In this document: positions 6,846-26,851 of the stretch, in pieces | Numbering within the stretch: position 1 is the first letter of the stretch | How the letters are laid out: every line of letters begins with the position of its first letter | Assembly: GCA_021204085.1 (NCBI GenBank) | Contig: JAJPZY010000061.1 | Location: 1-41,638, forward strand | DNA from: Clostridiales bacterium | GTDB taxonomy: Bacteria > Bacillota > Clostridia > Lachnospirales > Lachnospiraceae | Direction of reading: 5' to 3' | Length of the DNA stretch: 41,638 nucleotides | The notes under the pieces: generated by a model | Database searches by the model: none | The model's input: the letters and a program-made list of their open reading frames with translations, nothing else | What the model was told of the DNA's origin: nothing | Position numbers and translations under genes: made by a program

Positions 6846-6874
6846 ATCATATCGTTAAATATTCAATTAGTCAA
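6846..6874 (-). promoter_or_regulatory. Sigma-A promoter for the LacI-type gene
   Basis: On the minus strand TTGACT (6874-6869), a 17-bp spacer and TATGAT (6851-6846) form a near-consensus promoter. The leader is about 110 nt. It supports the shorter reading frame for the regulator. Confidence 0.72.
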
Positions 6875-7222: not shown

Positions 7223-8914
7223 ATGAAAAGAGTATGGTGGAAAGAGAGCGTGGTCTATCAGATCTATCCGAGAAGTTTTAAGGACAGCAATGGGGATGGA
7301 ATAGGAGATCTGAACGGTATTACGGAGAAACTGCCTTACATTAAGGAACTGGGAGCAGATGTGATCTGGCTGTCGCCTATTTATCAGTCGCCGAATGTGG
7401 ATAATGGGTATGATATCAGTGATTACCAGAGCATCATGGATGAGTTCGGGACTATGGAGGATTTTGACCGCATGCTTGCGCGGGCTCATGAGCTGGGACT
7501 GAAGATTATGCTGGATCTGGTTGTGAACCATACCTCGGATGAGCACCGATGGTTTGTGGAAAGCTACTCCGGCAGAGACAATCCATACCGGGATTTTTAT
7601 ATCTGGCGGGAACCGAAGGAAGGAAAAGAGCCGAATAACTGGGGGGCAAATTTTGGCGGCAGCGCCTGGACTTTCGCGGAGGAGACGGGGATGTATTATC
7701 TGCATCTGTTTGCGGAGAAACAGCCGGATCTGAACTGGGAGAATGAAGCAGTACGTGATGCTGTGTATGAGATGATGACCTGGTGGTGTGATAAGGGGAT
7801 TGACGGCTTTCGCATGGATGTGATCAGCCTGATTTCCAAAGTACAGGAAATGCCGGACGGGCCGGTGGGAGCCAACGGGCTGGGTGCGCCTTATCCCTAT
7901 GTAGTAAGCGGGCCTCGTGTCCATGAATTTTTGCAGGAGATGAATGAGAGGGTTCTGTCCCGTTATGATCTGATCACGATCGGTGAGGCATTCGGTGTGA
8001 CCTTGGATGAAGCGAAAAAATATGCCAACTCTGAGGGGACAGAACTGAATATGGTGTTCCATTTTGAACATATGGGTCTGGATAGCGGGGAGGATTTTTC
8101 CAAATGGTGTGATAAAAAGATTTCTCTTCCGGAGTTGAAGCAGGTGATGACCCGCTGGCAGAAAGGACTGGATGGGAAAGGGTGGAACAGCCTGTACTGG
8201 TGTAACCACGACCAGCCCCGGATTGTGTCGAGGTTTGGCAATGACGCTCCTGAGTATCGGGAAGTGTCCGCTAAAATGCTGGCGACCTGCCTGCACATGA
8301 TGCAGGGGACCCCTTATATTTTTCAGGGAGAAGAGCTGGGGATGACGAATTATCCGTTTTCTTCTATGGAAGAATACCGGGATGTTGAAAGCATTCAGGC
8401 TTTTGAGGATAACGCCGCGTCCGGTACGGTTGATCCGGAGACTATGCTTCGCTATATCGCTTACAAGAGCCGCGACAATGCGAGGACGCCGATGCAGTGG
8501 GATGATACGGCACAGGGCGGTTTTACCGCGGGAACGCCGTGGATTGGCGTGAATCCGAATTACAGACTGATTAATGCGGCAGAGCAGATGGGGCGGGAGG
8601 ATTCCGTTTTCCATTATTATCAGAAGCTGATCCGGCTGAGGAAAGAGTATCCGATTATTGTGTATGGTGCTTATGACCTGCTTTTGCCGGACAGTGAAGA
8701 AATCTATGCCTATTTGCGGAGATATGAAGGACAGACATTGCTGGTGGTTTGTAGCTTTACGGAAAAGAAGCAGATTTTTGAAGTGCCGGGAGAACTGGTG
8801 AATAAAGACGGGAACCTTTTGATCAGCAATTATGAAACCGCGGATGATGAGCGGGGGAAAGGCGTATCAGTTTTATCATTGAGACCTTATGAGGCGGATG
8901 TTATTTTGTTTTGA
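7223..8914 (+). CDS. malL: GH13 oligo-1,6-glucosidase / alpha-glucosidase
   Basis: A cytoplasmic 563-residue GH13 subfamily-31-type enzyme that releases glucose from the non-reducing end of short alpha-glucosides. The N-terminus 'WWKESVVYQIYPRSFKDSNG' is characteristic. Catalytic residues are Asp199 (nucleophile, 'GFRMDV'), Glu255 (acid/base, 'IGEAFG') and Asp330 ('NHDQPR'); the first two have the same numbers as in the Bacillus oligo-1,6-glucosidase. Valine follows the nucleophile (residue 200), the residue linked to alpha-1,6 preference in yeast isomaltase versus threonine in maltases. A close alternative is trehalose-6-phosphate hydrolase, but no trehalose PTS gene is nearby. It is the first gene of a three-gene operon with a binding lipoprotein and a hydrolase. 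The ribosome site AAAGGA lies 10 bp upstream. Confidence 0.87.
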   Translation: MKRVWWKESVVYQIYPRSFKDSNGDGIGDLNGITEKLPYIKELGADVIWLSPIYQSPNVDNGYDISDYQSIMDEFGTMEDFDRMLARAHELGLKIMLDLVVNHTSDEHRWFVESYSGRDNPYRDFYIWREPKEGKEPNNWGANFGGSAWTFAEETGMYYLHLFAEKQPDLNWENEAVRDAVYEMMTWWCDKGIDGFRMDVISLISKVQEMPDGPVGANGLGAPYPYVVSGPRVHEFLQEMNERVLSRYDLITIGEAFGVTLDEAKKYANSEGTELNMVFHFEHMGLDSGEDFSKWCDKKISLPELKQVMTRWQKGLDGKGWNSLYWCNHDQPRIVSRFGNDAPEYREVSAKMLATCLHMMQGTPYIFQGEELGMTNYPFSSMEEYRDVESIQAFEDNAASGTVDPETMLRYIAYKSRDNARTPMQWDDTAQGGFTAGTPWIGVNPNYRLINAAEQMGREDSVFHYYQKLIRLRKEYPIIVYGAYDLLLPDSEEIYAYLRRYEGQTLLVVCSFTEKKQIFEVPGELVNKDGNLLISNYETADDERGKGVSVLSLRPYEADVILF

Positions 8915-8973: not shown

Positions 8974-10596
8974 ATGAAAAAGAAAGTAATCAGCAGTCTG
9001 TTGGTGGCTGCGCTGGCGGGTAGTCTGCTCACGGCCTGCGGATCGGGGAGCAGCACGTCGACTTCCGACGCGGCTTCGGATTCCAGTGTCACCGAGAGTG
9101 AGGAGGGTGTGACTACGACTTCGTATGGTGAGTACACCGAGGAAGATCCCTATCATCTGGTATTCTCATATATTGAGTTTTATACTCAGGATGAGAGCGC
9201 GAGGGAGGCGGTAGAGGAAGCAATCAACGAGTATATGATTCCTAACTATCATATTGAAGTGGAATTGTTGCCGCTGGAGTACGCTGAGTATGCCACAACC
9301 GTGCAGTTGATGATGTCCGGCGGGGACGAGCTGGATGTTGTCCCGATTTATTATACTTATGCAGCCAGCTGGATCAATATGGGCGGTGTCTATGACATGT
9401 CGGAATTTATGGACACGGAAGAAGGTCAGATGATCGTGGACGTTCTCGGTGAGGAAAACGCTTATGTTGGTGAGATGAATGGCATTCTCTATGGATTCTC
9501 TGCGAATAAGGAATCTGTAAACCTGAGTGGCCTTTGCATGAGGGCTGACATTTGTGATGAACTTGGACTCACAGAGGAATATAATCTGGATGAAAACGGA
9601 GATACTTTCACAGAGGCTTATGACTGGAGCGTGGCGACAGAAATCTTTGCGAGAGTGCAGGAGGCTTATCCGGATATGACGCCGCTGTACCTTTACAGCT
9701 CTGATCAGCTGGGGAACATGGTGGACTATGATGGTCTGCAGGACAACTTCGGCGGCCTGATTCTGCAGGAAGACCGGGAAAGTCTGGAAGTGGTCAATCT
9801 TTACGAGACCGAGAGTGTGTATGATATGCTCTATACGCTGGCGAAGTGGTATGATGCGGGATATATTTATCAGGATGCTGCTACAGATACGCAGGGAACC
9901 GCTACGATGATGAAGGCCGGCAATACTTTCAGTTATGTGACATCCATCAAGCCGGGATTCCTGGCTGAGGCTGAGGCGGCCAACGGCTGTGACTGCTATG
10001 TGATGTATTTCAAACAGGATGGCGGCACCGATGGTATGATCGCGACGACAAATGTATCATTCTTTAACACAGGTATCGCTTCCAACAGCGAAGATCCGGA
10101 GATGGCCTTTAAATTCGTTTCCGCACTTTACAACGATGCAACTCTTATGAATCTGTGGCAGTACGGTATTGAAGATGTCAACTATCAGGTGTTGGACGAT
10201 GGTACTGCTTACTACATAGACGGTGAGGGTGACGGCAACTACGCATATCATCAGAACACCGGCTGGGCCATGGGCAACCAGTTTATCAGCTATGTGTGGA
10301 ACGACGGTACAAAGACAGCGGATTACTGGGATCAGCTGGCAGCCTTCAATGATAACGCATACTATTCGCCGGCTTTCGGCTTTATGTGGGACAGCTCGGA
10401 TTATTCTACCCAGATAACGGCTTTATCCAATGCTCTTGAAACCTATCGCGCGACTTTGACGACAGGCAGCTGCGGAACGGCAGGGTTGGACAGCACATTG
10501 CAGTCCCTGAATGATGCGCTCTACGCGGCCGGCCTGGAAGAAGTAATGGCGGCCAAGCAGGAGCAGCTGGATGCCTGGGCTGCAGAGCAGGAGTAA
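8974..10596 (+). CDS. Sugar ABC transporter substrate-binding lipoprotein (orphan)
   Basis: A 540-residue extracellular solute-binding protein of the large LplA type in the CUT1 family. A lipoprotein signal ends in the lipobox 'SLLTAC', giving lipidated Cys22, followed by a Ser/Thr/Asp-rich linker. The mature domain has 'LVFSYIEFY', 'MMSGGDELDVVPIYYTYAASW' (split here only by reading) and 'MMKAGNTFSYV'. It closely resembles the binding protein at 22285-23904 along its whole length, including the C-terminus. Unlike that one it has no permease genes beside it, so it may share the permeases at 20339-22185 and widen their ligand range. It sits between the GH13 enzyme and an alpha/beta hydrolase, with a strong AAGGAGG ribosome site and no promoter of its own visible. 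Confidence 0.9.
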   Translation: MKKKVISSLLVAALAGSLLTACGSGSSTSTSDAASDSSVTESEEGVTTTSYGEYTEEDPYHLVFSYIEFYTQDESAREAVEEAINEYMIPNYHIEVELLPLEYAEYATTVQLMMSGGDELDVVPIYYTYAASWINMGGVYDMSEFMDTEEGQMIVDVLGEENAYVGEMNGILYGFSANKESVNLSGLCMRADICDELGLTEEYNLDENGDTFTEAYDWSVATEIFARVQEAYPDMTPLYLYSSDQLGNMVDYDGLQDNFGGLILQEDRESLEVVNLYETESVYDMLYTLAKWYDAGYIYQDAATDTQGTATMMKAGNTFSYVTSIKPGFLAEAEAANGCDCYVMYFKQDGGTDGMIATTNVSFFNTGIASNSEDPEMAFKFVSALYNDATLMNLWQYGIEDVNYQVLDDGTAYYIDGEGDGNYAYHQNTGWAMGNQFISYVWNDGTKTADYWDQLAAFNDNAYYSPAFGFMWDSSDYSTQITALSNALETYRATLTTGSCGTAGLDSTLQSLNDALYAAGLEEVMAAKQEQLDAWAAEQE

Positions 10597-12210: not shown

Positions 12211-12239
12211 TTGACATGCAGAGGTAAATTTAATAAAAT
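12211..12239 (+). promoter_or_regulatory. Sigma-A promoter for the isomerase-transketolase operon
   Basis: TTGACA at 12211-12216, a 17-bp spacer and TAAAAT at 12234-12239. The leader to the ATG at 12338 is about 90 nt and carries an operator-like element at 12253-12269. Confidence 0.78.
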
Positions 12240-12337: not shown

Positions 12338-13741
12338 ATGAAGAAAGTAAAGATCGGTTTTGTACCTACCAGAAGAAGCATCTTCAGCGCGCCGGATGCG
12401 ATCAAGTACGCGAATCTGACGAGGAAGAAGCTGGAAGAGCTCGGTGTTGATTTTGTGGATATCACGGATATCAACGAGGAGGGGCTTTTTTACGATGAGG
12501 GAGATCGGGAGGCCATCCGGGCGAAGTTTACCGCAGCGGGCGTGAAGGGACTTTTCTTCCCGCACGGGAATTTCGGTACCGAGTATGTCTGCGCCAGACT
12601 GGCGAAGGATATGGGGCTGCCGGTTCTGCTGTGGGGACCGCGGGATGAGCGCCCGGAGGAGAACGGCGTCCGCCTGCGCGACAGTCAGTGCGGCCTGTTT
12701 GCTACGGGAAAAGTGCTGCGCAGATTCCGGGTACCGTTTACTTATATGACAAACTGCAGACTGGAGGATGAGGAGTTTACCCGCGGATTGTTTAATTTCC
12801 TGGCGGTCTGCAACGTGGTGGATGTGTTCCGCCATATAAGAATTCTTCAGATCGGCCCCCGCCCCTTTGATTTCTGGTCCACGATGTGCAACGAGGGCGA
12901 ATTGCTTGAGAAGTTCAATATTCAGCTTTCCCCGATTCCTCTTTCCGAGCTGACTTCCATGATGAAGACGGTCCGCGCAGATCATGCGGATGAGGTGCAG
13001 GAGGTCGTGGATTATTGCACGGCCAATATGAATATCTGTGTAAAACCGGAGGAGCTTAACACCATCGCGGCGCTGAAGGTGGCAATCCGAAAGCTTGCGG
13101 ATCAGTATGGCTGCAATGCGGGTGCCATCCAGTGCTGGAATGCCCTGCAGACGGAGATCGGTATCATGCCCTGCGCGGCGAACTCTTTATTAAATGAGGA
13201 AGGTTTCCCGGTCGTCTGCGAGACCGATATTCACGGAGCCATCACGGCGCTGCTTGTGGAGGCGGCCAGCTTAAATGAGACGAGAAGTTTCTTTGCAGAC
13301 TGGACGGTGCGCCATCCGGACAATGAGAACGGCGAGCTTCTGCAGCACTGCGGACCGTGGCCGATTTCCGTGGCGCAGGAGAAGCCGACCATCGGCTATC
13401 CGCTGGCATTCGATCATCCGGGTGCGGTAGAGGCACAGGCGAAGTTCGGCGATGTGACGCTGGCGCGGTTTGATGGCGACAACGGGGAATATTCCATGCT
13501 GCTCGGCAATGCGAAGGGCGTGGAAGGACCTTATACAAAGGGAACCTATCTCTGGGTGGAAGTGCAGAACTTAAAGCGCCTGGAGGCAAAGCTGGTGGAG
13601 GGGCCTTACATCCACCACTGTGTCGGCATTCATGAGAATGTGGTGCCGGTGCTCTACGAGGCTTGCAAATATATAGGGGTTGCTCCGGATCTGTATGACC
13701 CGATTGAGGAAGATGTGAAAGCATATTTGAGAGGTGAATGA
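12338..13741 (+). CDS. FucI/AraA-like sugar isomerase family protein
   Basis: A 467-residue cytoplasmic protein of the L-fucose/L-arabinose isomerase superfamily (COG2407 type), which interconverts aldoses and ketoses with a divalent metal. Visible family signatures are 'TEIGIMPCAANSLLNEEG', 'CETDIHGA' with probable metal ligands Glu295 and Asp297, and the C-terminal histidine pair 426-427 in 'GPYIHHCVGIHEN'. It is shorter than classical FucI (about 590), so its substrate is likely different. Directly downstream lie a two-gene transketolase and an FGGY kinase. The set isomerase, ketose kinase, transketolase A and B equals that of the non-oxidative D-apiose route, so apiose-to-apulose isomerisation is the leading guess. 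Other branched or short sugars cannot be excluded. Its 3' end overlaps the next coding region or abuts it closely. Confidence 0.8.
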   Translation: MKKVKIGFVPTRRSIFSAPDAIKYANLTRKKLEELGVDFVDITDINEEGLFYDEGDREAIRAKFTAAGVKGLFFPHGNFGTEYVCARLAKDMGLPVLLWGPRDERPEENGVRLRDSQCGLFATGKVLRRFRVPFTYMTNCRLEDEEFTRGLFNFLAVCNVVDVFRHIRILQIGPRPFDFWSTMCNEGELLEKFNIQLSPIPLSELTSMMKTVRADHADEVQEVVDYCTANMNICVKPEELNTIAALKVAIRKLADQYGCNAGAIQCWNALQTEIGIMPCAANSLLNEEGFPVVCETDIHGAITALLVEAASLNETRSFFADWTVRHPDNENGELLQHCGPWPISVAQEKPTIGYPLAFDHPGAVEAQAKFGDVTLARFDGDNGEYSMLLGNAKGVEGPYTKGTYLWVEVQNLKRLEAKLVEGPYIHHCVGIHENVVPVLYEACKYIGVAPDLYDPIEEDVKAYLRGE

Positions 13742-13743
13742 TC

Positions 13744-14574
13744 ATGTATACGAACAAAGAACTGGCGAAACTGGCGTATAAGCTGAGAAAAGATACGCTG
13801 GACATTATCATGGCCGGCAAGGCGGGACATATTGGCGGCGATATGAGTGAGATGGACATTCTGGTGCAGCTCTATTTTAAGCATATGAATATCTCTCCGG
13901 AAAACGCGGACGATGAGAACAGAGACCGTTTTGTCTTAAGCAAGGGACATTCCATGGAGGCGTATTACGCAGTCCTCGCGGAGAAAGGATTTTTTCCGCT
14001 GGAGGAGGTTCTGGAGAAATTTTCCAAATTCAACACAAAATTTATCGGACATCCCAATAACAAGCTGCCGGGAATCGAGATGAACTCCGGCTCTCTTGGT
14101 CATGGGCTGCCGGTTTCCATCGGCATGGCTCTCGCGGGGAAGATGAACAAAAAGGATTATCGGGTCTATACCGTCATGGGCGACGGTGAACTGGCGGAAG
14201 GTTCCGTCTGGGAAGGCGCGATGGCCGGCGGACATTACAAGCTGGATAATCTCTGCGCGGTGGTTGACCGCAACCGTCTGCAGATTTCCGGTTCTACGGA
14301 GGATGTGATGAGCCAGGATGACCAGGCGACCAGATGGAGCGCATTCGGGTGGAATGTGATCGAGGTAAACGGCAACGATATGGAAGAGCTGGATGCTGCT
14401 TTTGACAAAGCGGCTGAAACCAAAGGATGCCCTACTGTGATCATCGCCAATACCACAAAGGGCTGCGGCGCGTCCGTAATGGAGAATAAGGCGGCGTGGC
14501 ATCACAAGGTACCGACTGCGGAGGAATATACGGCAATCGTGGAAGAACTGAAGGCGAGAGAGGAGGCTATCTGA
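13744..14574 (+). CDS. Transketolase, N-terminal (TPP pyrophosphate-binding) subunit
   Basis: The N-terminal half of a split transketolase, 276 residues. The thiamine-diphosphate motif begins at Gly146-Asp147-Gly148 ('MGDGELAEGSVWEG') and ends near 'VVDRNRLQ'. 'AGHIGGDMS', 'FVLSKGHS' and 'NSGSLGHGLPVSIGMA' are further cofactor and substrate-site segments. With the next gene it would transfer a two-carbon ketol unit between sugar phosphates. The start at 13744 is chosen because GAGGTG (13731-13736) is 7 bp away; an ATG at 13738 overlaps the isomerase stop and is too near the ribosome site. Beside a dedicated isomerase and kinase this is more likely a pathway-specific enzyme, such as apulose-4-phosphate transketolase (AptA-type), than the housekeeping one; sequence alone cannot separate them. 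Confidence 0.9.
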   Translation: MYTNKELAKLAYKLRKDTLDIIMAGKAGHIGGDMSEMDILVQLYFKHMNISPENADDENRDRFVLSKGHSMEAYYAVLAEKGFFPLEEVLEKFSKFNTKFIGHPNNKLPGIEMNSGSLGHGLPVSIGMALAGKMNKKDYRVYTVMGDGELAEGSVWEGAMAGGHYKLDNLCAVVDRNRLQISGSTEDVMSQDDQATRWSAFGWNVIEVNGNDMEELDAAFDKAAETKGCPTVIIANTTKGCGASVMENKAAWHHKVPTAEEYTAIVEELKAREEAI

Positions 14575-14576
14575 TC

Positions 14577-15512
14577 ATGGCGAAAATTGCGAATAAACAG
14601 GTAATATGTGATGTGCTGATGGAGCATGCGAAGGAAGATAAGGATATCGTGGTTCTCTGCAGTGACTCCAGGGGGAGCGGTTCCATGACTCCCTTTGCGA
14701 ATGAGTATCCGGAGCAGTTTGTGGAGACCGGTATCGCGGAGCAGAATCTGGTAAGCATCTCTGCAGGTCTGGCAAAATGCGGGAAAAAGCCTTTTGCGGT
14801 TTCCCCGGCCAGTTTTCTCTCTACCAGAAGCTATGAGCAGGCAAAGGTCGACTGCGCGTACTCTAATACAAATGTTACGCTTGTCGGCATCAGCGGCGGC
14901 GTCAGCTATGGCGCCCTTGGCATGAGCCATCACTCCGCGCAGGATATCGCGGCGATGTCGGCGATTCCGAATATGCGTGTTTATCTGCCGAGTGACCGGT
15001 TCCAGACCGGAAAGCTGATCGAGGCACTGCTTCAGGATCAGAAGCCCGCCTACATCCGTGTGGGAAGAAATGCGGTGGATGATGTTTACACCGAAGATAA
15101 TGTCCCGTTCGAGATGGATAAGGCGACTGTGGTCGCGGAGGGAACCGATGTACTGATCGTAGCCTGCGGCGAGATGGTGGGTCCGGCCAAAGCGGCGGCG
15201 GAGCTCTTAAAAGAGCAGGGAATTTCTGCCGGCGTACTCGATATGTACTGTGTAAAGCCGCTGGATGAGAAGACACTGGTTGAGAAGGCGTCAAAAGTCA
15301 AAGCGGTAATTACCGTGGAAGAACATGCGCCCTACGGTGGACTTGGCTCCATGGTCTGCCAGGTCATCTGCAGGGACTGCCCGAAAAAAGTCGCGGTAAT
15401 GGCGCTTCCCGACGCACCGGCTGTATCCGGCACATCGAAGGAAGTATTTGCGTACTACGGCCTTTCCGCGGAAGGAATCTCCGCGAAGGCGAAGGAACTG
15501 TTAAATAGGTAA
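14577..15512 (+). CDS. Transketolase, C-terminal (pyrimidine-binding) subunit
   Basis: The C-terminal half of the split transketolase, 311 residues. The pyrimidine-binding domain carries the catalytic glutamate Glu55 in 'TGIAEQNLVSISAGLA', and the final third is the usual transketolase C-terminal domain ('LIVACGEMVGPAKAAAELL', 'VITVEEHAPYGGLGSM'). It starts 2 bp after the first subunit, with AGGAGG at 14561-14566 lying inside that gene, so the two are made together. An in-frame ATG at 14496 is rejected because it overlaps the first subunit by 79 bp and adds 27 residues unlike the family. It is the AptB-type counterpart if the apiose assignment is right. The 83-bp gap to the kinase holds only a small hairpin near 15543. 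Confidence 0.9.
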   Translation: MAKIANKQVICDVLMEHAKEDKDIVVLCSDSRGSGSMTPFANEYPEQFVETGIAEQNLVSISAGLAKCGKKPFAVSPASFLSTRSYEQAKVDCAYSNTNVTLVGISGGVSYGALGMSHHSAQDIAAMSAIPNMRVYLPSDRFQTGKLIEALLQDQKPAYIRVGRNAVDDVYTEDNVPFEMDKATVVAEGTDVLIVACGEMVGPAKAAAELLKEQGISAGVLDMYCVKPLDEKTLVEKASKVKAVITVEEHAPYGGLGSMVCQVICRDCPKKVAVMALPDAPAVSGTSKEVFAYYGLSAEGISAKAKELLNR

Positions 15513-15595
15513 ATAAAAGACGGCGGAGGAAAATAAGGAAATCAACGTGCCTGCGTTGAAAAGGAACGTCGAATTCTTTATAGAGGTAGCTAAAT

Positions 15596-17077
15596 ATGAT
15601 GAAAGAATATGTTATCGGCATCGACCAGAGCACGCAGGGTACAAAAGCGCTTCTGTTTGACCGCTGCGGGAAGCTGATTGCCCGCTGTGACATTCCCCAT
15701 GCACAGATTATCAATGATCTGGGATGGGTATCCCATAATATGGAGGATATTTATCACAATGTTCTGCATGTGACGCGGGAACTTTTGCAGCTGATAAAAG
15801 TATCGCCGGAGCAGGTGGCATGCATCGGACTCAGCAACCAGAGAGAGACAACCTGCATGTGGCAGAAAAGCACAGGGAAACCTCTGGATTACGCCGTGGT
15901 CTGGCAGTGCAGCCGCGCAAAGGATATCGAGGAGCGCGTGGCGTCTTTGGGACAGGCGGAAGAGATTCGCCGGAAAACGGGAATCCCGTTGTCTGCGTAC
16001 TATCCGGCCTGCAAGATGGCATGGCTTCTTGCCGCACATCCGGAGGCGTTATCCGATCCGGAGGATATCTGCCTGGGGACGGTCGACGCATGGCTGGTAT
16101 TTAAACTGACGGAGGAACATGCGTTTCGGACGGATTATTCCAACGCTTCCCGGACGCAGCTGTTCAACATCCATACCCTGGAGTGGGATGAGGAACTCTT
16201 AAGTCTCTTCGGAGTATCGAAACAGATGCTGCCGGAGGTTACAGATTCCGACAGCGTTTTCGGGTATACAACGATGGAAGGCCTTTTCCCGGAGGCAATC
16301 CCTGTATGCGGTGTGCTTGGAGATTCTCACGGCGCTCTTTTCGGACAGGGCTGCCATGAGGCAGGCATGGTGAAGACAACCTACGGGACCGGATCTTCTG
16401 TGATGATGAATATCGGCGATGCGCCGATCTTAAGCGAAAACGGGATGGCGACATCCCTTGCATGGAAGAGAAATGGCCGGGCGGAGTATGTGCTGGAAGG
16501 AAATTTAAATTACACGGGTGCTGTGATTACCTGGCTGAAGGATGATCTGGGACTGATCAATTCTGCCGGGGAAACGGATGCCCTGGCGAGGTCTGCCAAT
16601 TCGGCGGACCGGACGTATCTGGTGCCGGCCTTTTCCGGCCTGGGCGCTCCCTACTGGGATTCGGAGGCACTGGCAAGTTTCTGCGGGATGAGCCGGACGA
16701 CGCGGCGTGCGGAACTGGTAAAAGCCGGTCTGGAGAGCATCGCGTATCAGATTACAGACCTGATCTTTGCGATGGAAGGAGATACGGGTATTAATATAGA
16801 AGAAGTCCGTGTGGACGGCGGACCGACGAAAAATACCTACCTGATGCAGTTCCAGAGTGATTTGCTTCAGAAGAAAATTGCAATCCCGGAGTATGAGGAA
16901 TTGTCGGGCATCGGGGCTGCTTATATGGCGGGCATCAGCTGCGGATTTTATGAGGAGAAGACGCTGTTTGCGGGAATGAAACGCTCCCGTTTTTCTCCGG
17001 AGATGAATCCGTCTGTCCGCGATGAAAAATACAGCGGATGGAAATCAGCGGTTTCGACAGTGTTAAGTAATAAATAG
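15596..17077 (+). CDS. GlpK-like FGGY carbohydrate kinase
   Basis: A 493-residue FGGY kinase close to glycerol kinase in architecture: 'GIDQSTQGTKALLFD' phosphate-1 loop, 'GLSNQRETT', 'TYGTGSS' and the adenosine-site 'VRVDGGPTKN'. In glycerol kinase the pocket is Arg83, Glu84, Trp103, Tyr135, Asp245, Gln246 and Phe270. Here Arg83, Glu84, Trp103, Tyr135 and Asp243 are present at matching places, but the Gln is Ser244 and the Phe is replaced by serine in 'GTGSS'. 'WQDRR' has become 'WQCSR'. A larger, more polar substrate with a glycerol-like end is therefore likely. Given the neighbouring isomerase and transketolase, a ketose such as apulose is proposed (ApsK-type). The second ATG at 15599 is an equally possible start. 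Confidence 0.85.
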   Translation: MMKEYVIGIDQSTQGTKALLFDRCGKLIARCDIPHAQIINDLGWVSHNMEDIYHNVLHVTRELLQLIKVSPEQVACIGLSNQRETTCMWQKSTGKPLDYAVVWQCSRAKDIEERVASLGQAEEIRRKTGIPLSAYYPACKMAWLLAAHPEALSDPEDICLGTVDAWLVFKLTEEHAFRTDYSNASRTQLFNIHTLEWDEELLSLFGVSKQMLPEVTDSDSVFGYTTMEGLFPEAIPVCGVLGDSHGALFGQGCHEAGMVKTTYGTGSSVMMNIGDAPILSENGMATSLAWKRNGRAEYVLEGNLNYTGAVITWLKDDLGLINSAGETDALARSANSADRTYLVPAFSGLGAPYWDSEALASFCGMSRTTRRAELVKAGLESIAYQITDLIFAMEGDTGINIEEVRVDGGPTKNTYLMQFQSDLLQKKIAIPEYEELSGIGAAYMAGISCGFYEEKTLFAGMKRSRFSPEMNPSVRDEKYSGWKSAVSTVLSNK

Positions 17078-17122
17078 GAAGAAAGATTTTTCGTAAGAAT
17101 AAATCACGGGAGGAGTTGCCGG

Positions 17123-18625
17123 ATGAGACAATATGAAACATTTAAGTTAAAGTTTAAAGGTGCGGCACCGGAGAGTTCTCAGGCTGCTGTCAATCTGGAG
17201 GCTGCGTTTACGGTCGGTGAGGAAACGGTAAAGGTAAAGGGATTTTACGCCGGAGATGAATCCTATGCGGTGCGTTTTTATCCGGTGAAACCGGGATGCT
17301 ATACATGGAAAGTGACCGGCGCTGTGGAAGCGGAGGGCAAGGAAGTCTGTGATGCGGCGGTGTACCCGGGCATGGTAAAAGCAGAAGAAACTCATTTTGC
17401 CTATGAGAATGGGGAGCCGTTTTATCCGTTCGGAACGACCGTCTATGCCCTTGCGCATCAGAGTGAGGAGATCATTGAGCAGACGTTCGCGTCGCTTGAA
17501 AAATCGCCTTTTAATAAGGTTCGGCATTGCATTTTCCCGAAACATTATTCTTACAATCACAATGACCCGGAGCTTTATCCTTTTGAGAAGAAGGAGGATG
17601 GCAGCTGGGATGTGCACCGTCCCTGCTTTGCCTACTGGGACCATATGGAGAGTATCATCCGCCGCCTGGGGGAGATGGGCATCGAGTCCGATTTAATCCT
17701 GTTTCACCCGTATGACAACTGGGGCTTTGCAACGATGAGTATGGAGGAAAATCTGGTCTACCTGGACTACCTGCTGCGCAGACTTTCGGCAATCCCGTAT
17801 ATCTGGTGGAGTCTGGCCAATGAGTATGATATCATGTTTTCCCGCACGAAGGAGGATTGGTATGTGATTGAGGATTACGTGGCGGCAAACGATCCGTATC
17901 ATCACCTGCTCAGCAACCATAACTGCATGAAATTTTATGATTTTTCAAGACCGAATATTACGCACTGCTGCATCCAGACGCCGGCGATGCATCTGACCGG
18001 AGCAATGATGGAGCGTTACGGCAAGCCGGTTGTATTTGACGAGTGCGAATATGAGGGCGACATCGAGTTTAACTGGGGAAATATCTCGGCATTCGAGATG
18101 GTTAACCGTTTCTGGAAGGGGTGCGTGGCCGGCGGTTATGCGACGCACGGCGAGACTTTCTGGTCGGAGGATGAGGTGCTCTGGTGGGCGAAAGGCGGCG
18201 TGCTGAAAGGGGAGAGTCCGCAGCGGATTGCTTTTCTGCGTGATATCATCTCCGAATTGCCGGGCGCCTTAAAACCCTGGCAGGAGCCGATCTATGAGGA
18301 TTACGGAGAAATGCCGGATAATGGCACATTTGAGATATTTATGGCTCTCAGGGCGTCGCTTACTGAAGAGGAGCGGATCAACCTGGAGTGGAAGGACGCG
18401 CAGTATGCCGGACACATAGAGGACGAGGTGTTTTTGAAATACCTCGGAAACCAGTGCTGCAGTGTCTCTGCAATCCGTCTGCCGAAAGATCATACCTATA
18501 AGGTGGAAGTCATTGACGTGTGGGAGATGACAAGGACGACGGTTTATGAGGAGGCAAAAGGGAAAACCATGCTGAAGCTTCCGGGGAAGGCCGGCATGGC
18601 GGTTCTGGCGACCAGGGTAGAATAA
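17123..18625 (+). CDS. DUF5060/DUF4038 (apiosidase-like) glycoside hydrolase, intact
   Basis: A 500-residue protein with an N-terminal DUF5060 beta-sandwich (to about residue 85), an apiosidase-like DUF4038 TIM barrel (from 'FYPFGTTVYAL') and a C-terminal beta domain of the DUF5605 type. Candidate acid/base is Glu234 in 'WWSLANEYD' and candidate nucleophile Glu307 in 'VVFDECEYEGD', the arrangement of clan GH-A enzymes. The fold contains the GH140 apiosidase family, though many members have other or unknown activity. There is no signal peptide, so it acts in the cytoplasm on imported oligosaccharides or glycosides. It is the last gene of the isomerase-transketolase-kinase operon, 45 bp after the kinase, which links the released sugar to that pathway. 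The related gene at 4102-5628 is broken. Confidence 0.82.
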   Translation: MRQYETFKLKFKGAAPESSQAAVNLEAAFTVGEETVKVKGFYAGDESYAVRFYPVKPGCYTWKVTGAVEAEGKEVCDAAVYPGMVKAEETHFAYENGEPFYPFGTTVYALAHQSEEIIEQTFASLEKSPFNKVRHCIFPKHYSYNHNDPELYPFEKKEDGSWDVHRPCFAYWDHMESIIRRLGEMGIESDLILFHPYDNWGFATMSMEENLVYLDYLLRRLSAIPYIWWSLANEYDIMFSRTKEDWYVIEDYVAANDPYHHLLSNHNCMKFYDFSRPNITHCCIQTPAMHLTGAMMERYGKPVVFDECEYEGDIEFNWGNISAFEMVNRFWKGCVAGGYATHGETFWSEDEVLWWAKGGVLKGESPQRIAFLRDIISELPGALKPWQEPIYEDYGEMPDNGTFEIFMALRASLTEEERINLEWKDAQYAGHIEDEVFLKYLGNQCCSVSAIRLPKDHTYKVEVIDVWEMTRTTVYEEAKGKTMLKLPGKAGMAVLATRVE

Positions 18626-20253: not shown

Positions 20254-20306
20254 CCTGCGGGCGCGGAGAAAATTGTAAATGCCGGACAATTTTCCGACGG
20301 CGCAGG
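20254..20306 (+). other. Structured mRNA leader element
   Basis: GAAAATTGT (20268-20276) pairs perfectly with ACAATTTTC (20286-20294) around a 9-nt loop, and an outer stem CCTGCG (20254-20259) pairs with CGCAGG (20301-20306) across an internal loop. It ends about 18 nt before the ribosome site AAAGGAGAG. No T tract follows, so it is not a terminator; it may stabilise the mRNA or control translation. Confidence 0.45.
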
Positions 20307-20338
20307 TGGAAGGAAAAAGGAGAAAGGAGAGAAAGTAT

Positions 20339-21283
20339 ATGGATGCAAAATCCGAAACAAAACAGTTGGGGCATAAGGCAGCTGTGTTCAAACGTTATCT
20401 GCCCCTGTATCTGATGTTCCTGCCCGGCGCGATCTATCTGGTGATCAACAACTATATCCCGATTGGCGGCCTGATTGTTGCGTTTAAGTCTTATAACGTG
20501 CGTCAGGGACTCTTCGGCAGTGACTGGTGTGGTTTTCAGAACTTCCGGTTCTTATTTGCCACATCGGATGCCTGGGTTATCACGAGGAACACGATTCTTT
20601 ACAATGCGGCCTTCATTATCATTAACCTGGTCGTAGGTATTGCGTTCGCTATCTTCATCTGCGACACGGTTCACAGACGGCTGAGCAAGGTTTACCAGAA
20701 CGCGATCCTCTTCCCGTATCTGATGTCGGCCGTGGTTCTTGGCTATATCGTATACGCGTTTTTCAGCCAGAGCCTTGGTATCGTGGACAACACGATTCTT
20801 CCGTTCTTTGGAAAGGAATCGATCGCCTGGTACTCGGAGGCGAAGTACTGGCCGGCGATTCTGATCTTCTTCAATACCTGGAAGGGTGTGGGTTACGGAT
20901 GTCTGATCTATATCTCGACGATCAACGGCATTGATCCGACGTTATATGAGGCAGCGAGCCTGGACGGTGCGACAAAGTGGCAGCAGATCCGCAACATCAC
21001 GCTTCCCGAGCTGACCCCCACCATTATTACTCTGACCCTGATGAATGTCGGACGTATCTTCTATTCCGACTTCGGTCTTTTCTATCAGGTTCCGAGAAAC
21101 TCGGGCGCGATTTTCTCGACGACGAACGTTATCGATACATACGTGTACCGCGGCCTGATGGAGCAGTCGAACATCGGTATGTCGGCGGCGGCGGGCTTTT
21201 ACCAGTCCATCGTAGGTTTCTGCATTGTGCTTTTGGCGAACGCGATCGTCCGTAAGTTCAGCAGAGAGAATGCATTGTTCTAG
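20339..21283 (+). CDS. ABC sugar transporter permease, LplB-type
   Basis: A 314-residue inner-membrane permease of the CUT1 family, about six helices. The cytoplasmic EAA loop that docks the ATPase reads 'LYEAASLDGATKWQQIRNIT'. The N-terminal helix begins 'YLPLYLMFLPGAIYLVINNY', as in LplB/YteP proteins. Start at 20339 follows AAAGGAGAG; the in-frame ATG at 20279 sits inside the leader hairpin and is rejected. It pairs with the next permease (17 bp on) and the binding lipoprotein to import an oligosaccharide or glycoside. No ATP-binding subunit is encoded in the window, so a multitask ATPase of the MsmX type must be supplied from elsewhere. Confidence 0.92.
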   Translation: MDAKSETKQLGHKAAVFKRYLPLYLMFLPGAIYLVINNYIPIGGLIVAFKSYNVRQGLFGSDWCGFQNFRFLFATSDAWVITRNTILYNAAFIIINLVVGIAFAIFICDTVHRRLSKVYQNAILFPYLMSAVVLGYIVYAFFSQSLGIVDNTILPFFGKESIAWYSEAKYWPAILIFFNTWKGVGYGCLIYISTINGIDPTLYEAASLDGATKWQQIRNITLPELTPTIITLTLMNVGRIFYSDFGLFYQVPRNSGAIFSTTNVIDTYVYRGLMEQSNIGMSAAAGFYQSIVGFCIVLLANAIVRKFSRENALF

Positions 21284-21300: not shown

Positions 21301-22185
21301 ATGAAGAAAAAACCATTTTCCAAATTTGAGATTGGCGCGAATGCGATCATGATTATCTGGACGATCCTGATCATCCTTCCGTTTGTACTTTTGTTTATGT
21401 CCTCGATCACTGAGGAGAACACGCTGGTGGCCAACGGTTACGCGTTCTTCCCTGAGAAGTTCTCCGGCGCGGCGTACGTGTACCTGTTTAAATCCGGCAC
21501 GACCATTATCCGTGCTTACGGCGTCAGTATTCTTGTGACAGCCATCGGTACTCTGGCGAACGTGGCACTGTGTGCGCTGATGGCGTATCCGCTGTCCCTG
21601 CAGAATCTGCCGGGGCGCAGAGCACTGAACTTCTTCGTATTTTTCACGATGCTGTTCAACGGCGGTATCGTTCCTTCCTACCTGCTGTGGACGTCATTGG
21701 GAGTGAAGGATACGATCTGGGCGCAGATCCTGCCGAACTTCCTGGTCAGCGCGTGGAACGTAATTATGATCCGTACATACTTTGCCAATAGTATTCCGGC
21801 TGCTCTTTATGAGGCGGCGGAGATCGACGGCGCTTCCCAGATGACGATTTTTACAAAGATTGCACTGCCTCTGGGCAAGCCGATTCTGATCACGATGGGA
21901 ACCTTCGCGGGTCTGACTTACTGGAATGACTGGACGAATGGACTGTACTATATTGTAAAGAATAAGAATCTGTATAATGTACAGAACCTCTTAAACCAGA
22001 TGGTCAGCAATATTCAGTATCTGGCAAACAGCAGCGACTCCAACGTGAGTTCGGCGGCGGCCTCGATTCCTTCGACGGCTATCCAGATGGCAATCGCGAT
22101 TGTCGCGATTCTCCCGATCATGGCCATCTTCCCGTTCTTCTCCAAGTACTACACCAAGGGTCTTACTCTCGGCAGCGTGAAGTAA
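21301..22185 (+). CDS. ABC sugar transporter permease, YtcP/LplC-type
   Basis: The second CUT1 permease, 294 residues and six predicted membrane helices. It starts 'KFEIGANAIMIIWTILIIL', has the periplasmic segment 'SITEENTLVANGYAFFPEKF' and the EAA loop 'LYEAAEIDGASQMTIFTKIA'. It ends 'FSKYYTKGLTLGSVK', the usual terminus of YtcP/LplC proteins. With the upstream permease it forms the membrane channel. A 12-bp hairpin in the following gap separates it from the binding-protein gene and may protect or process the message. Confidence 0.93.
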   Translation: MKKKPFSKFEIGANAIMIIWTILIILPFVLLFMSSITEENTLVANGYAFFPEKFSGAAYVYLFKSGTTIIRAYGVSILVTAIGTLANVALCALMAYPLSLQNLPGRRALNFFVFFTMLFNGGIVPSYLLWTSLGVKDTIWAQILPNFLVSAWNVIMIRTYFANSIPAALYEAAEIDGASQMTIFTKIALPLGKPILITMGTFAGLTYWNDWTNGLYYIVKNKNLYNVQNLLNQMVSNIQYLANSSDSNVSSAAASIPSTAIQMAIAIVAILPIMAIFPFFSKYYTKGLTLGSVK

Positions 22186-22204
22186 CAGGGCAAATATGTG
22201 ATTG

Positions 22205-22247
22205 ACCGTGCGGCTATTGACCGGTATACTGTTTTTAGCCGTGCGGT
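22205..22247 (+). other. Intercistronic hairpin before the binding-protein gene
   Basis: ACCGTGCGGCTA (22205-22216) pairs with TAGCCGTGCGGT (22236-22247), ten standard and two G-U pairs, around a 19-nt loop. No T tract follows. It lies 26 nt before the ribosome site AAGGAGGA. Such structures between permease and binding-protein genes often raise the amount of binding-protein mRNA. Confidence 0.55.
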
Positions 22248-22284
22248 TATCGATAGTATATTAATTTTAATTAAGGAGGAAACT

Positions 22285-23904
22285 ATGAAAAAGAAAATTA
22301 TCAGCAGTCTTTTGGTGATGGCTCTGGCAGGTTCCCTGATCGGAGTTGCCGGCTGCGGGAGCAGCAGCTCTTCCAGCGGCTCCAGTACCGGAGCGACCAG
22401 TTCTACGGATGAGGTGACCGTCACATCCTATGGCGAGTACACAGCGGATGATCCGTATCATCTTACCTTTGCTTTTGTTGAGTTCTATGAGCAGGATGAC
22501 GATGCGAGAGCGGCGGTTGAGGATGCCCTGAACGAGTATCTGACCGAGAATTATCACATCGAGGTAGAGTTCCTTCCGCTGCAGTATGCGGAGTATCAGA
22601 CGACCCTTCAGCTGATGATGTCCGGCGGCGACGCTCTGGATGTTATGCCGATCTACTACACCGATACTTCCAGCTGGATTTCCATGGGCGGCGTCTATGA
22701 CATGAGCGAATTTATGGACACCGCTGACGGCCAGGCGATTATCGATGCGCTGGGTGAAGAGAACGCGTATGTTGGTACGATGAACGGCACGCTGTATGGC
22801 TTCCCTGCAAACAAAGAGTCTGTGGAACTCGGCGGCCTGTTCATGCGTGCGGATATCTGTGATGAGTTGGGGATCACCGAGGAGTACAATCTGGCGGACT
22901 ATGATTCCGGCGAATTCCCCGGCGAGTGCTATGACTGGTCTGTAGCGACTGAGATTTTTGAAAAAGTACATGAAGCATATCCGTCCATGACCTGCCTGTA
23001 TATGTATCAGTCCGATCAGCTGAACCGTTTTGCAGACTTTGACTATCTGGTAGATTACTTCGGCGGCCTGGATCTGCAGGCAGATCGGACCAGCACAGAG
23101 GTCGTAAATATCTTTGAGACAGATACTTTCTACGATGAGGTTTCTCAGCTTGCTGAGTGGTACGACGCGGGTTACATTTATCAGGATGCGGCTACCGATA
23201 CCCAGGGTACCGCTACCATGATGAAGGCCGGCAATACTTTCAGCTATGCGACCGCAATCAAGCCGGGCTTCCTGGCTGAGGCCGAAGCATCCAACGGCTG
23301 TGAAGGCTATGTTATGTACTTCAAGACCGGCGGCGGCACAGATGGTTATATCACAACCACCAACGTATCCTTCTTCAACACCGGTATCGCGACCAACAGC
23401 GAAGATCCGGAGATGGCGTTCAAGTTTATCTCTGCGCTGTACAGCGATCCTACCGTAATGAACCTGTGGCAGTATGGTATCGAGGATGTCAACTATCAGG
23501 TACTTGACGACGGCACGATCTACTATGTGGACAGTGAGGATAACGGCAACTTTGCTTATCATCAGAACAGCGGATGGTCCATGGGTAACCAGTTCATCTC
23601 CTATGTATGGAATGACGGCACCAAAGAAGCGGACTACTGGGATCTGTTAGCTTCTCACAATGACAATGCTTACTATTCACCGGCATTCGGATTTATGTGG
23701 GATTCCTCGGATTACTCCACACAGATCACGGCTCTGTCGAATGCATGGTCTACCTATGAGTACACACTGCTGACCGGCAGCTGCGGCACCGCAAATCTGG
23801 ACAGCACCATCGAGGCCTTAAACAATGCACTCTATTCTGCGGGTCTGGAAGAGGTAATGGAAGCAAAGCAGGCGCAGCTGGATGAGTGGCTTGCGGAGCA
23901 GTAA
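22285..23904 (+). CDS. Sugar ABC transporter substrate-binding lipoprotein
   Basis: A 539-residue extracellular binding protein of the LplA type. The signal peptide ends in 'GVAGC', so Cys24 is lipidated, followed by a serine/threonine-rich linker. The mature part begins 'DDPYHLTFAFVEFYEQDDDA' and contains 'MMSGGDALDVMPIYYTDTSSW' (one residue over the family core) and 'MWDSSDYSTQITALSNAW' near the end. It is a full-length paralogue of the protein at 8974-10596, with long identical stretches. It is the third gene of the permease operon and would deliver ligand to them. The start is fixed by AAGGAGGA at 22273-22280; an upstream in-frame extension to 22198 runs through the hairpin and is rejected. 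Confidence 0.93.
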   Translation: MKKKIISSLLVMALAGSLIGVAGCGSSSSSSGSSTGATSSTDEVTVTSYGEYTADDPYHLTFAFVEFYEQDDDARAAVEDALNEYLTENYHIEVEFLPLQYAEYQTTLQLMMSGGDALDVMPIYYTDTSSWISMGGVYDMSEFMDTADGQAIIDALGEENAYVGTMNGTLYGFPANKESVELGGLFMRADICDELGITEEYNLADYDSGEFPGECYDWSVATEIFEKVHEAYPSMTCLYMYQSDQLNRFADFDYLVDYFGGLDLQADRTSTEVVNIFETDTFYDEVSQLAEWYDAGYIYQDAATDTQGTATMMKAGNTFSYATAIKPGFLAEAEASNGCEGYVMYFKTGGGTDGYITTTNVSFFNTGIATNSEDPEMAFKFISALYSDPTVMNLWQYGIEDVNYQVLDDGTIYYVDSEDNGNFAYHQNSGWSMGNQFISYVWNDGTKEADYWDLLASHNDNAYYSPAFGFMWDSSDYSTQITALSNAWSTYEYTLLTGSCGTANLDSTIEALNNALYSAGLEEVMEAKQAQLDEWLAEQ

Positions 23905-24111: not shown

Positions 24112-26721
24112 ATGGCGAAATTTCACACCACGACAAATCCCGAAATGAGCGAGCGGGAGAAAAGAAACGCTACGCGCGCGAGAAAGATCGCTGCGCAGGG
24201 GATGGTGCTTCTGGAGAATGACGGAGTGCTGCCTCTCGCGAAGGAGACAAAAAAGCTGGCGCTTTTCGGAAACGGCGCACGCAGGACCGTCAAGGGCGGC
24301 ACCGGTTCCGGCGACGTGAACAGCCGCTTTGTCGTCAATGTGGAACAGGGGCTGGAAGCAGCGGGATATGAAATCACTACCAAATCATGGCTGGACGCGT
24401 ATGACGCACAGGTAGAGGGCGCGCAGAAAGCCTATTATCTGGGTGTCAAAAAAGCGATGGATACTGTGGGAGAAGTGGCGGGAATAATGGAATTATTCAA
24501 TCATCCCTTTACGGAACCGACGATTCAGGTGATCACAAAAGATTCCTTAGATGCAGGGGATTGTGTTACAGCGATTTTTGTGATTTCCCGTAATTCCGGG
24601 GAGGGGAAAGACCGTTCTCCCGTTGCAGGGGATTATGAGCTGAATGAGGAGGAGAAAAACTCCATCCAGGCGTTGACAGAGGTTTATGATAAGGTGATCA
24701 TTGTACTGAATGTGGGCGGTGTGGTCGACACAAAGTTCCTGCGGGGATGCAAGGGAATCAACGCGATCCTTCTGATGAGCCAGGCCGGAAACATCGGCGG
24801 TTATGCTCTGGCGGATGTGCTCACCGGAGCGGTCACGCCCAGCGGACATCTGACCGATACATGGGCGGAGAATTATACCGATTATCCCGGTTCCGATGTT
24901 TACAGCCATATGAACGGAAATGTGGACGACGAGTATTATAATGAGGGGATTTACGTGGGATACCGGTATTTTGATACGTTCGGCATTACGCCTGCGTATC
25001 CGTTCGGCTATGGTTCTTCTTATACGACGTTTTCCGTGGAGACGAAGGATGTGTCTGTGGAAGAAAATCAGATCACTGTGAAGGCGGCGGTAAAGAATAC
25101 CGGAGATGTTTACAGCGGACGTGAGGTCGTGCAGGTGTACTATTCCGCATCGGACGGGAAGCTGGAGAAGCCTTATCAGGAGCTGGCGGCATATGCGAAG
25201 ACCGGAGAACTGGCTCCGGGTGAGGAAGAGGAACTTACAATCTCATTTAAGGCAGAATCTATGGCATCCTATGATGAGAGCCGCGCCGCTTACGTGCTGG
25301 AAGCGGGAGACTATTATATCCGTGTGGGTGTAAATTCCAGAGCAACGAAAGTTGCGGCTGTGATCGAGCTGGTGGAGGAAGCTGTTACGGAGAAGCTGGC
25401 AAATAAGCTGCCACTCGATTGCGAGCTTGACCTGATTTCCGCGAAAGATGCGGTTCCGTACACGTATGATGAGGAAAAACAGGAGATGGCTTCAGCGAAG
25501 CGTCTCGCGCTCAATGCAGAGAATCTCACATATAAGGAAGCAGTCTACAGCGGGATGCCGGAGCCTCTGGCAAAAGCGGATACCGACCGTGTGCTGACGG
25601 CTGACGATGTGCGGTCGGGAAGAGCTTCTCTCGATGATCTGGTTTCTCAGCTGACGGTGGAGGAGATGGCGCTTCTCTGCGTCGGAACCGCCCGCGGCGG
25701 GATTGGCACGGGATCGGTGATCGGATCTGCCTCCGCGGTCTGCCCCGGTGCGGCCGGCGACACGACTTCTGTCATGATTGACGATCGGGACATCCGGAAT
25801 ATGATCCTCGCGGACGGCCCGGCAGGCCTGCGTCTGATCACGGAGTTTCAGGTTGGCCCGGACGGGGAAAAGATTCCCGGCAACGATATGGCAATACCTG
25901 GAATGGAACTGATTGCAGGTGACGCTCCGAAGCCGGAGATTCCGGATGGAACAGTCAGTTATTATCAGTACTGCACCGCGATTCCCATTGCCTCTCTTCT
26001 GGCGATGACCTGGGACGAGGCGGTGATCGAGGAAGCCGGAGATATCGTGGGCGAAGAGATGATTGAACTTGGGATAACCTTGTGGTTGGCGCCGGGCATG
26101 AACATCCACCGGAATCCGCTGTGCGGACGGGATTTTGAGTATTATTCGGAGGATCCGCTCATTGCCGGAAAGTGTGCGGCGGCGGATACCCGCGGCGTAC
26201 AGAAACATGCCGGTATAGGGACAACGATCAAGCATTTTGCATTCAACAACCAGGAGGATAACCGGATGCATACGAACGCACATGTCAGCGAGCGGGCAGC
26301 CAGAGAGATTTTCCTGAAGGGCTTTGAGATTGCGGTGAAGGAGTCGCAGCCGCTGTCTATGATGACGTCTTACAACCTGATCAACGGCATCCATGCGGCG
26401 AACAATTACGATATGCTGACCTCCCTTTGCAGAGACGAGTGGGGGTTTGAAGGCTTCGTTATGACCGACTGGGGGACGACCGGAAGCATCGAGATGGAGC
26501 CGGGCAAGACCTTTAAGTACGGCTGCTCGAACGCTGCGGGCTGTGTCAAGGCCGGCAACGAGCTGACGATGCCGGGCTGCCAGGCGGATGTGGATGAGAT
26601 CATTCGTTCTGTCGGTGCGAAAGAAGGGGAAGTGGAGTATCCGCTGACTCTGGGAGAGCTGCAGAATGCCGCGAAGCGGATGCTGCGGGTGATCTTAAAC
26701 AGCGCTGCCTACGAAGCGTAA
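24112..26721 (+). CDS. Domain-permuted GH3 glycosidase (beta-glucosidase type)
   Basis: An 869-residue cytoplasmic GH3 enzyme with reversed domain order. The C-type alpha/beta sandwich comes first (residues about 20-300, 'AAQGMVLLENDGVLPL'), then a fibronectin-III-like domain (about 310-410, 'GREVVQVYYSA'), a linker, and last the TIM-barrel catalytic domain (about 510-865). The latter has 'GRDFEYYSEDPLIAGK', 'KHFAFNNQEDNRM' and 'GFVMTDWG' with nucleophile Asp786. Such permuted GH3 proteins are known in rumen and gut Firmicutes. The family removes terminal beta-glucose or similar residues; exact specificity is open. No signal peptide is present. It opens the long glycosidase run and has the ribosome site AAGGAGGAAG. 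Confidence 0.9.
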   Translation: MAKFHTTTNPEMSEREKRNATRARKIAAQGMVLLENDGVLPLAKETKKLALFGNGARRTVKGGTGSGDVNSRFVVNVEQGLEAAGYEITTKSWLDAYDAQVEGAQKAYYLGVKKAMDTVGEVAGIMELFNHPFTEPTIQVITKDSLDAGDCVTAIFVISRNSGEGKDRSPVAGDYELNEEEKNSIQALTEVYDKVIIVLNVGGVVDTKFLRGCKGINAILLMSQAGNIGGYALADVLTGAVTPSGHLTDTWAENYTDYPGSDVYSHMNGNVDDEYYNEGIYVGYRYFDTFGITPAYPFGYGSSYTTFSVETKDVSVEENQITVKAAVKNTGDVYSGREVVQVYYSASDGKLEKPYQELAAYAKTGELAPGEEEELTISFKAESMASYDESRAAYVLEAGDYYIRVGVNSRATKVAAVIELVEEAVTEKLANKLPLDCELDLISAKDAVPYTYDEEKQEMASAKRLALNAENLTYKEAVYSGMPEPLAKADTDRVLTADDVRSGRASLDDLVSQLTVEEMALLCVGTARGGIGTGSVIGSASAVCPGAAGDTTSVMIDDRDIRNMILADGPAGLRLITEFQVGPDGEKIPGNDMAIPGMELIAGDAPKPEIPDGTVSYYQYCTAIPIASLLAMTWDEAVIEEAGDIVGEEMIELGITLWLAPGMNIHRNPLCGRDFEYYSEDPLIAGKCAAADTRGVQKHAGIGTTIKHFAFNNQEDNRMHTNAHVSERAAREIFLKGFEIAVKESQPLSMMTSYNLINGIHAANNYDMLTSLCRDEWGFEGFVMTDWGTTGSIEMEPGKTFKYGCSNAAGCVKAGNELTMPGCQADVDEIIRSVGAKEGEVEYPLTLGELQNAAKRMLRVILNSAAYEA

Positions 26722-26746
26722 TTTAGGTAATAGAAAATAAGACGCG

Positions 26747-26817: not shown

Positions 26818-26851
26818 TGTATTCCCAAGGTAAGAAAGGAGAAGGAACGGA

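Follow-up and report, generated by a model that had tools for sequence, protein, structure and literature searches.

A predicted D-apiose catabolic operon of the transketolase type, with a distinct isomerase clade and an apiosidase-fold protein, in a Lachnospiraceae genome

Introduction

The window considered here is the whole analysed stretch of 41,638 nucleotides from a Clostridiales bacterium of the Lachnospiraceae (assembly GCA_021204085.1, contig JAJPZY010000061.1), whose genome is assembled in 151 contigs totalling 2.93 Mb and is 95% complete. Between positions 12338 and 18625 it carries five tightly packed genes, all on the forward strand, for an isomerase, the N- and C-terminal subunits of a split transketolase, a GlpK-like kinase and a DUF5060-DUF4038-DUF5605 protein. 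This operon most probably serves to catabolize D-apiose by the transketolase route, a reading to which we assign a probability of roughly 0.86 and which is based on gene order, tree position, a residue signature, conservation and co-occurrence. Apiose is a rare branched plant sugar; it is a constituent of rhamnogalacturonan II and also of apiosides of the flavonoid and saponin classes, apiin among them. The pathway itself is already known; it is the isomerase clade and the candidate sugar-releasing enzyme type that differ from the known members.

In the proposed scheme, ATP-binding cassette (ABC) transporters would import apiose-bearing plant glycosides or oligosaccharides, which a set of glycoside hydrolases (GH) would trim inside the cell, with the DUF5060-DUF4038 proteins releasing apiose. 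The isomerase, which has the AraA/FucI fold, would then convert D-apiose to D-apulose, and the kinase, judging by its clade and pocket residues, would yield D-apulose 4-phosphate. Finally, the transketolase, given its grouping with AptA/AptB, is expected to move two carbons from apulose 4-phosphate onto glyceraldehyde 3-phosphate, yielding xylulose 5-phosphate and dihydroxyacetone phosphate. The reactions of the D-apiose transketolase pathway, with ApsI, AplK and AptA/AptB as its enzymes, were reportedly described by Carter et al. in 2018.

Organization of the core genes

The first gene (12338-13741; 467 residues) encodes the predicted D-apiose isomerase, assigned to the L-fucose/L-arabinose isomerase superfamily from a domain search, its orthologues and invariant residues. 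It is followed by the predicted D-apulose-4-phosphate transketolase, as an AptA-like N-terminal, thiamine diphosphate subunit (TKN; 13738-14574; 278 residues; domain match and trees) and an AptB-like C-terminal subunit (TKC; 14577-15512; 311 residues; domain match and tree). For the latter, the ATG at 14577 was chosen as the start, a listed GTG at 14496 being unnecessary. The predicted D-apulose kinase, GlpK-like and of the AplK type (15596-17077; 493 residues), was assigned from a domain match, trees and a residue signature, and the DUF5060-DUF4038-DUF5605 protein (17123-18625; 500 residues), a candidate for an intracellular apiosidase outside GH140, from domain and profile searches. Profile scores within the core were 172 bits for Transketolase_N, 102 for Transket_pyr, 109 for Transketolase_C, and 216 and 121 for FGGY_N and FGGY_C. 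The open reading frames and domain matches thus bear out the gene set named in the original prediction, a FucI-like isomerase, transketolase N and C subunits, an FGGY kinase and a DUF5060/DUF4038 protein.

With the 14577 start, the successive intergenic gaps are -4, +2, 83 and 45 bases, and the core is flanked by 262 bases 5' of the isomerase and 160 bases 3' of the final gene. The close spacing on one strand fits the single operon that had been proposed. The single promoter is less firmly placed: a promoter-like site, TTGACA-17-TAAAAT, lies ahead of the isomerase (12211-12239, forward strand; 11 of 12 consensus matches) and is only suggestive, because such sites occur at near chance level across the 15.5 kb scanned (22 observed, 16.2 expected).

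Split transketolase and kinase

In a tree of the joined TKN and TKC sequences, ten clusters and five AptA/AptB-type pairs (from E. coli, three other enterobacteria and Rhizobium) fall on one side and all 14 of the other split transketolases on the other (support 99/97), a partition recovered in 100% of 200 bootstrap trees. TKN alone gives poor support for the clusters as one group (22/0) and 95/88 for the clusters together with AptA; adding TKC resolved the placement. The window therefore holds what characterizes AptA/AptB at the level of sequence, namely adjacent N- and C-terminal genes that group with AptAB apart from other split transketolases, and its subunits are 44% and 36% identical to AptA and AptB of E. 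coli SE15, respectively. Placement of the two halves in the housekeeping clade had been named in advance as the outcome that would speak against an apiose pathway, and the joined tree places them elsewhere; a housekeeping transketolase is ruled out by the trees. The two-gene enzyme is thus predicted to be of the AptA/AptB type and to act on apulose 4-phosphate.

The kinase is 41% identical to E. coli AplK. An unrooted tree splits the apiose-type kinases, AplK included, from GlpK (100/99), and with outgroups the cluster kinases and AplK remain together (99/99). Seven positions, which we take to be the glycerol contacts of GlpK, were compared, and two of them differ consistently: the Gln/Phe pair of all 11 GlpK sequences is Ser/Ser in 16/16 apiose-type kinases and in none of the GlpKs, a change that suggests a larger substrate. 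The window kinase scores 545 bits against the TIGR01311 GlpK equivalog, under its cut-off of 590, and the source genome keeps a separate GlpK above that cut-off, as do seven out of eight sister genomes that were searched. Together, the trees and the Ser/Ser signature rule out a plain GlpK glycerol kinase, and clade and pocket residues point to a predicted D-apulose kinase of the AplK type.

Conservation of the core across genomes

Orthologues of the isomerase (at least 62% identity) occur in 67 of the 397 sampled genomes of the family, the source genome included. For 30 of the other 66 genomes, the surroundings of the isomerase were retrieved (up to 20 kb each), and TKN, TKC and the kinase lie near it in all 30, with a transporter sometimes separating the kinase from the rest of the core and the kinase truncated where the retrieved sequence ends in two loci (L056, L057). 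By contrast, the core is found in none of ten paralogous loci (isomerase 40-58% identical; E 1e-40), the lone exception being one full-length transketolase (L067); different FGGY kinases, 19-25% identical, are present at four of these loci.

A phylum-wide sample of 397 other genomes added three isomerase orthologues (E 1e-190), each accompanied by the core; in one case, TKN is spread over two overlapping frames. The locus of Listeria monocytogenes comprises LacI, the isomerase, TKN, TKC, a ‘glycerol kinase’, a phosphotransferase system and a DUF4038 protein, the last scoring 313 bits to the Apiosidase family over nearly the whole profile and having 8t9w, ‘Apiosidase’, as its best PDB match. 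That of Monoglobus pectinilyticus holds LacI, the isomerase, TKN, TKC, a ‘glycerol kinase’ and a DUF5060 protein. A cluster of Lactobacillus jensenii with a rhamnosidase, transporters, an isomerase, and DUF4038 and DUF5060 genes, reported and read as amylase-like in PMC10711310, resembles the window set.

The isomerase

The isomerase has the fold and the conserved acidic and His residues of the L-arabinose/L-fucose isomerase superfamily, with a Fucose_iso_C score of 22.2 bits, under the cut-off of 29.3. Residues E295, D297, D321, H337, H426 and H427 are among the columns invariant in 33/33 aligned rows, and the conserved acidic and His residues presumably include the metal ligands. Its only NCBIfam match is the sulfoquinovose isomerase SftI (NF048012), at 100 bits against a cut-off of 700, well outside membership. 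Searches of the PDB gave no match with the isomerase sequence as query and one meaningless match (E 0.92) with a profile of the enterobacterial cluster isomerases. To those enterobacterial enzymes, from Sodalis, Klebsiella and Rahnella, it is 29-30% identical, and the tree places it in the same fold family in a separate, distant clade. The original prediction cautioned that the isomerase family may differ from characterised apiose isomerases, and the distance seen here is to these enterobacterial proteins; characterised ApsI sequences were not reached, no Pectobacterium or Actinobacillus title appearing among the 80 of 87 loci kept.

The isomerase is predicted to act on D-apiose, and the choice of substrate rests on context, because its nearest paralogues (53-58% identical) stand without the core and the context of one, L063, differs. 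In L063 and, by similarity, L064 (55-58% identical) there are two FGGY kinases, XylB-like in L063, where an aldolase-type gene is also present, a set that reads as an unassigned sugar pathway.

DUF5060-DUF4038 proteins and the apiosidase fold

The protein of 17123-18625 matches DUF5060, Apiosidase and DUF5605, each above cut-off (51-54 bits). A second DUF5060-DUF4038 protein, for which no DUF5605 match is listed, is encoded at 4060-5346 (forward strand) and is 40% identical to the first. The original prediction saw in the DUF4038 protein a relative of the GH140 apiosidases; the apiosidase fold (PF13204) stands and GH140 membership does not. The window-type and GH140-type profiles are related with a profile-profile probability of 99, that is, one fold in different families. 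In the PDB, the GH140-type profile retrieves BT1012 (3kzs), 4qfu and 8t9w, scoring 417-440 bits, and gives 29 bits for 4n0r, whereas 4n0r (524 bits) is the sole entry retrieved by the window-type profile, and likewise by the window protein sequence. GH140-type proteins of sister genomes match BT1012 (3kzs/5msy) and 8t9w, ‘Apiosidase’. With 4n0r as the only PDB match of their profile, both window DUF4038 proteins are excluded from GH140. Relative to the GH140 type, the window type bears additional DUF5060 and DUF5605 domains and has an invariant Asn233-Glu234 (numbering of the 17123-18625 protein) where the GH140-type rows have an invariant Gly157 and a nearly invariant Asp158; Glu307 is invariant in the former, and Glu244 and Glu248 in the latter. 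These residues are presumably the catalytic ones, and PMC4032388 notes that the PF13204 active site varies between Glu and Asp.

PF13204 matches occur in 43/67 isomerase-bearing genomes and in 1/67 without the isomerase (Fisher p 3e-16). The latter set comprised G001-G082 minus genomes with isomerase-family matches at 1e-60 and minus G006, G020 and G023 (60-67% complete), and its one positive (G036) is a broken, higher-scoring match counted as GH140-type. Divided by score, by hand, the 64 PF13204 rows gave 27 of the DUF5060 type (E 1.1e-20 or weaker) and 37 of the GH140 type, fragments included; 18 fetched proteins, ten GH140-type and eight DUF5060-type, agree with this split. The DUF5060-type rows are confined to the isomerase-bearing genomes (24/67 vs 0/67), and 14 of the 27 are found no more than 10 kb from the isomerase. 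At that distance there are 19 of the 64 PF13204 rows, in 18/67 genomes, the 14 DUF5060-type rows (two supplied by the window) being joined by five of the GH140 type (hand count). GH78 is also commoner in genomes with the isomerase, and the counts were therefore stratified, using tallies made by hand from 80 of the 134 genomes: PF13204 is present in 27/33 GH78-bearing genomes with the isomerase and 1/9 without it, and in 3/7 and 0/31, respectively, of the remaining genomes. The DUF5060-DUF4038 proteins are the best candidates for apiose release. The source genome has a third PF13204 protein, GH140-type by score, outside the window (L220, G000:C101:2400-5400; 676-2310, reverse strand).

Comparison with known apiose clusters

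The D-apiose transketolase pathway is entered in MetaCyc as PWY-8089, and aplK, aptA and aptB are named in E. coli SE15 (both in PMC13001218). The same source describes growth on D-apiose for three further E. coli strains that bear the cluster, as well as for one E. fergusonii, and proposes two putative oxidoreductases in Escherichia, including SE15, in place of the missing FucI-type isomerase, ApsI. The window shares the gene set of the ApsI/AplK/AptAB pathway but differs in the distant clade of its isomerase, its LacI-type regulator, its transporter, which consists of a permease pair and DUF3502 binding proteins, and the apiosidase-fold genes within or close to the operon. The clusters of Sodalis, Klebsiella and Rahnella likewise hold transketolase N and C subunits, a FucI-type isomerase and an FGGY kinase, along with an ABC transporter and DUF2291, and the Sodalis isomerase, unlike that of the window, scores strongly on Fucose_iso_C (110 bits). 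The cluster of Rhizobium sp. CC-CFT758 (L138, 3154-4134) has both transketolase subunits, DUF2291, genes for an ABC transporter and a kinase in which the Ser/Ser change is present, but a xylose-isomerase-like TIM barrel replaces the isomerase and tpiA lies in the cluster.

The transporter type of the E. coli apiose cluster recurs in sister loci, as a binding protein in 7/30 (39-44% identical) and an ATPase in 8/30 (46-48%). One of these sister-locus binding proteins shares 60% identity with RHE_PF00037 of Rhizobium etli, whose PDB entry is titled a ribose transporter protein. Entry 5ibq, titled ‘Probable ribose ABC transporter, substrate-binding protein’, also matches by sequence and is absent from the structure lists; its ligand is reportedly apiose.

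Alternative readings

Several observations weigh against the apiose assignment. The window TKN is closer in pairwise identity to the other split transketolase of its own genome (50%) than to E. coli AptA; it is by trees alone that the AptA/AptB type is separated from other split transketolases, the AptA branch is long, and the TKN-only tree puts one of the others (L131) on the apiose side. For the kinase, pairwise identity hardly distinguishes E. coli GlpK (40%) from AplK, and a third contact position is Tyr in window-type kinases and Leu in the four enterobacterial and Rhizobium kinases. As for the isomerase, its identity to the enterobacterial cluster enzyme is a mere 29% or so and its nearest paralogues stand apart from the core; clade and core are also imperfectly matched, because the isomerase of L062 (62% identical) accompanies the core yet groups with the paralogues L063 and L064 (98/94). 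No PF13204 match was found in 24/67 isomerase-bearing genomes, and GH78 is commoner with the isomerase (33/40 vs 9/40 genomes), a lifestyle confound. The PDB relatives of sister-locus binding proteins carry ribose-binding titles, and an RbsB-type binding protein went unmatched in the source genome, an empty result that is uninformative alone. Finally, the E. coli evidence is one of cluster presence and growth, with no knockout, in the available part of PMC13001218.

These points bear unequally on the alternatives. The transketolase might take D-apulose in its unphosphorylated form, with xylulose 5-phosphate and dihydroxyacetone as products, and the GlpK-like enzyme would then be a dihydroxyacetone kinase. 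GlpK-type enzymes accept dihydroxyacetone, and the broader GlpK subfamily model (NF000756) is the best NCBIfam match of the kinase, at 557 bits over a cut-off of 498, but the grouping with AplK and the two Ser replacements among the seven glycerol contacts, shared by E. coli AplK, make this unlikely. It is distinctly improbable that the operon degrades a different branched or linear plant aldose, for which an apiose-type transketolase and kinase were recruited: the distinct isomerase clade with close paralogues in other contexts and both binding-protein results would fit such a substrate, whereas apiose is favoured by the transporter type of the apiose cluster, present at 7 to 8 of 30 orthologous loci, and by the GH140-type proteins that accompany the core in Listeria and some sister genomes. 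Split transketolases also occur in sulfoquinovose clusters, and SftI is the isomerase's sole NCBIfam match, so that a sulfoquinovose transketolase pathway was weighed as well. It is scarcely credible and was rejected on the low SftI score, exceeded by the 119 bits of the Sodalis cluster isomerase, and on the GlpK-like kinase conserved in 30/30 loci; the co-occurrence, moreover, is with apiosidase-fold proteins. The D-apiose pathway of isomerase, kinase and two-subunit transketolase, as originally proposed, is therefore supported by the trees, the Ser/Ser signature, conservation and co-occurrence, with its substrate assigned by prediction.

The odds appear about even that the DUF5060-DUF4038-DUF5605 proteins represent a second, intracellular apiosidase family apart from GH140, that the clade of the 467-residue isomerase is a separately recruited D-apiose isomerase, and that apiosylated plant compounds are degraded wholly inside the cell. 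If so, the first step would have evolved apart from those in other enterobacteria, which use another FucI-type clade, in Rhizobium, with a TIM barrel, and in E. coli, where an oxidoreductase pair may act, and up to four different enzymes for one isomerization would offer a test case of non-orthologous replacement. If the apiose reading holds, the isomerase, Ser/Ser kinase and AptAB would form a marker set for apiose users, the isomerase being present in 67/397 sampled genomes of the family, and functions would be predicted for groups broadly named ‘L-fucose/L-arabinose isomerase family’, ‘glycerol kinase’, ‘DUF5060’ and ‘DUF4038’.

Neighbouring genes, transport and regulation

A LacI-family regulator (5711-6850, reverse strand), separated from the isomerase by three genes, possibly controls the core set. 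LacI-like genes adjoin and diverge from the isomerase in several sister loci, and LacI genes accompany it in Listeria and Monoglobus too; no LacI operator palindrome common to the window and 29 sister loci was seen upstream of the isomerase. Between regulator and core lie a GH13 gene (7223-8914), at 679 bits to the alpha,alpha-phosphotrehalase subfamily model (cut-off 535) and 707 to the equivalog, under its cut-off of 799; a lipoprotein-type solute-binding protein with a DUF3502 C-terminus (8974-10596, forward; domain match); and an alpha/beta hydrolase of PF20091 (10600-12075, forward). The last, a 37% homologue of which adjoins a DUF4038 homologue in L048, possibly deacylates acylated glycosides and might strip acyl groups from acylated apiosides.

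Downstream of the core, an ABC permease pair (20279-21283 and 21301-22185, forward), here labelled LplB/YtcP, precedes a second DUF3502 solute-binding protein (22198-23904, forward; domain match). Genes for GH3, GH5, GH3, DUF624, GH43, GH78 and GH3 follow at 24112-37875 (forward; domain matches), and this set probably trims plant glycosides. As was first proposed, the GH proteins appear to lack secretion signals, the hydropathy of their N-terminal 45 residues, a crude check in place of a signal-peptide predictor, revealing no signal-like stretch. In the GH3 protein of 24112-26721, the C-terminal domain (31-284) precedes the N-terminal domain (612-859).

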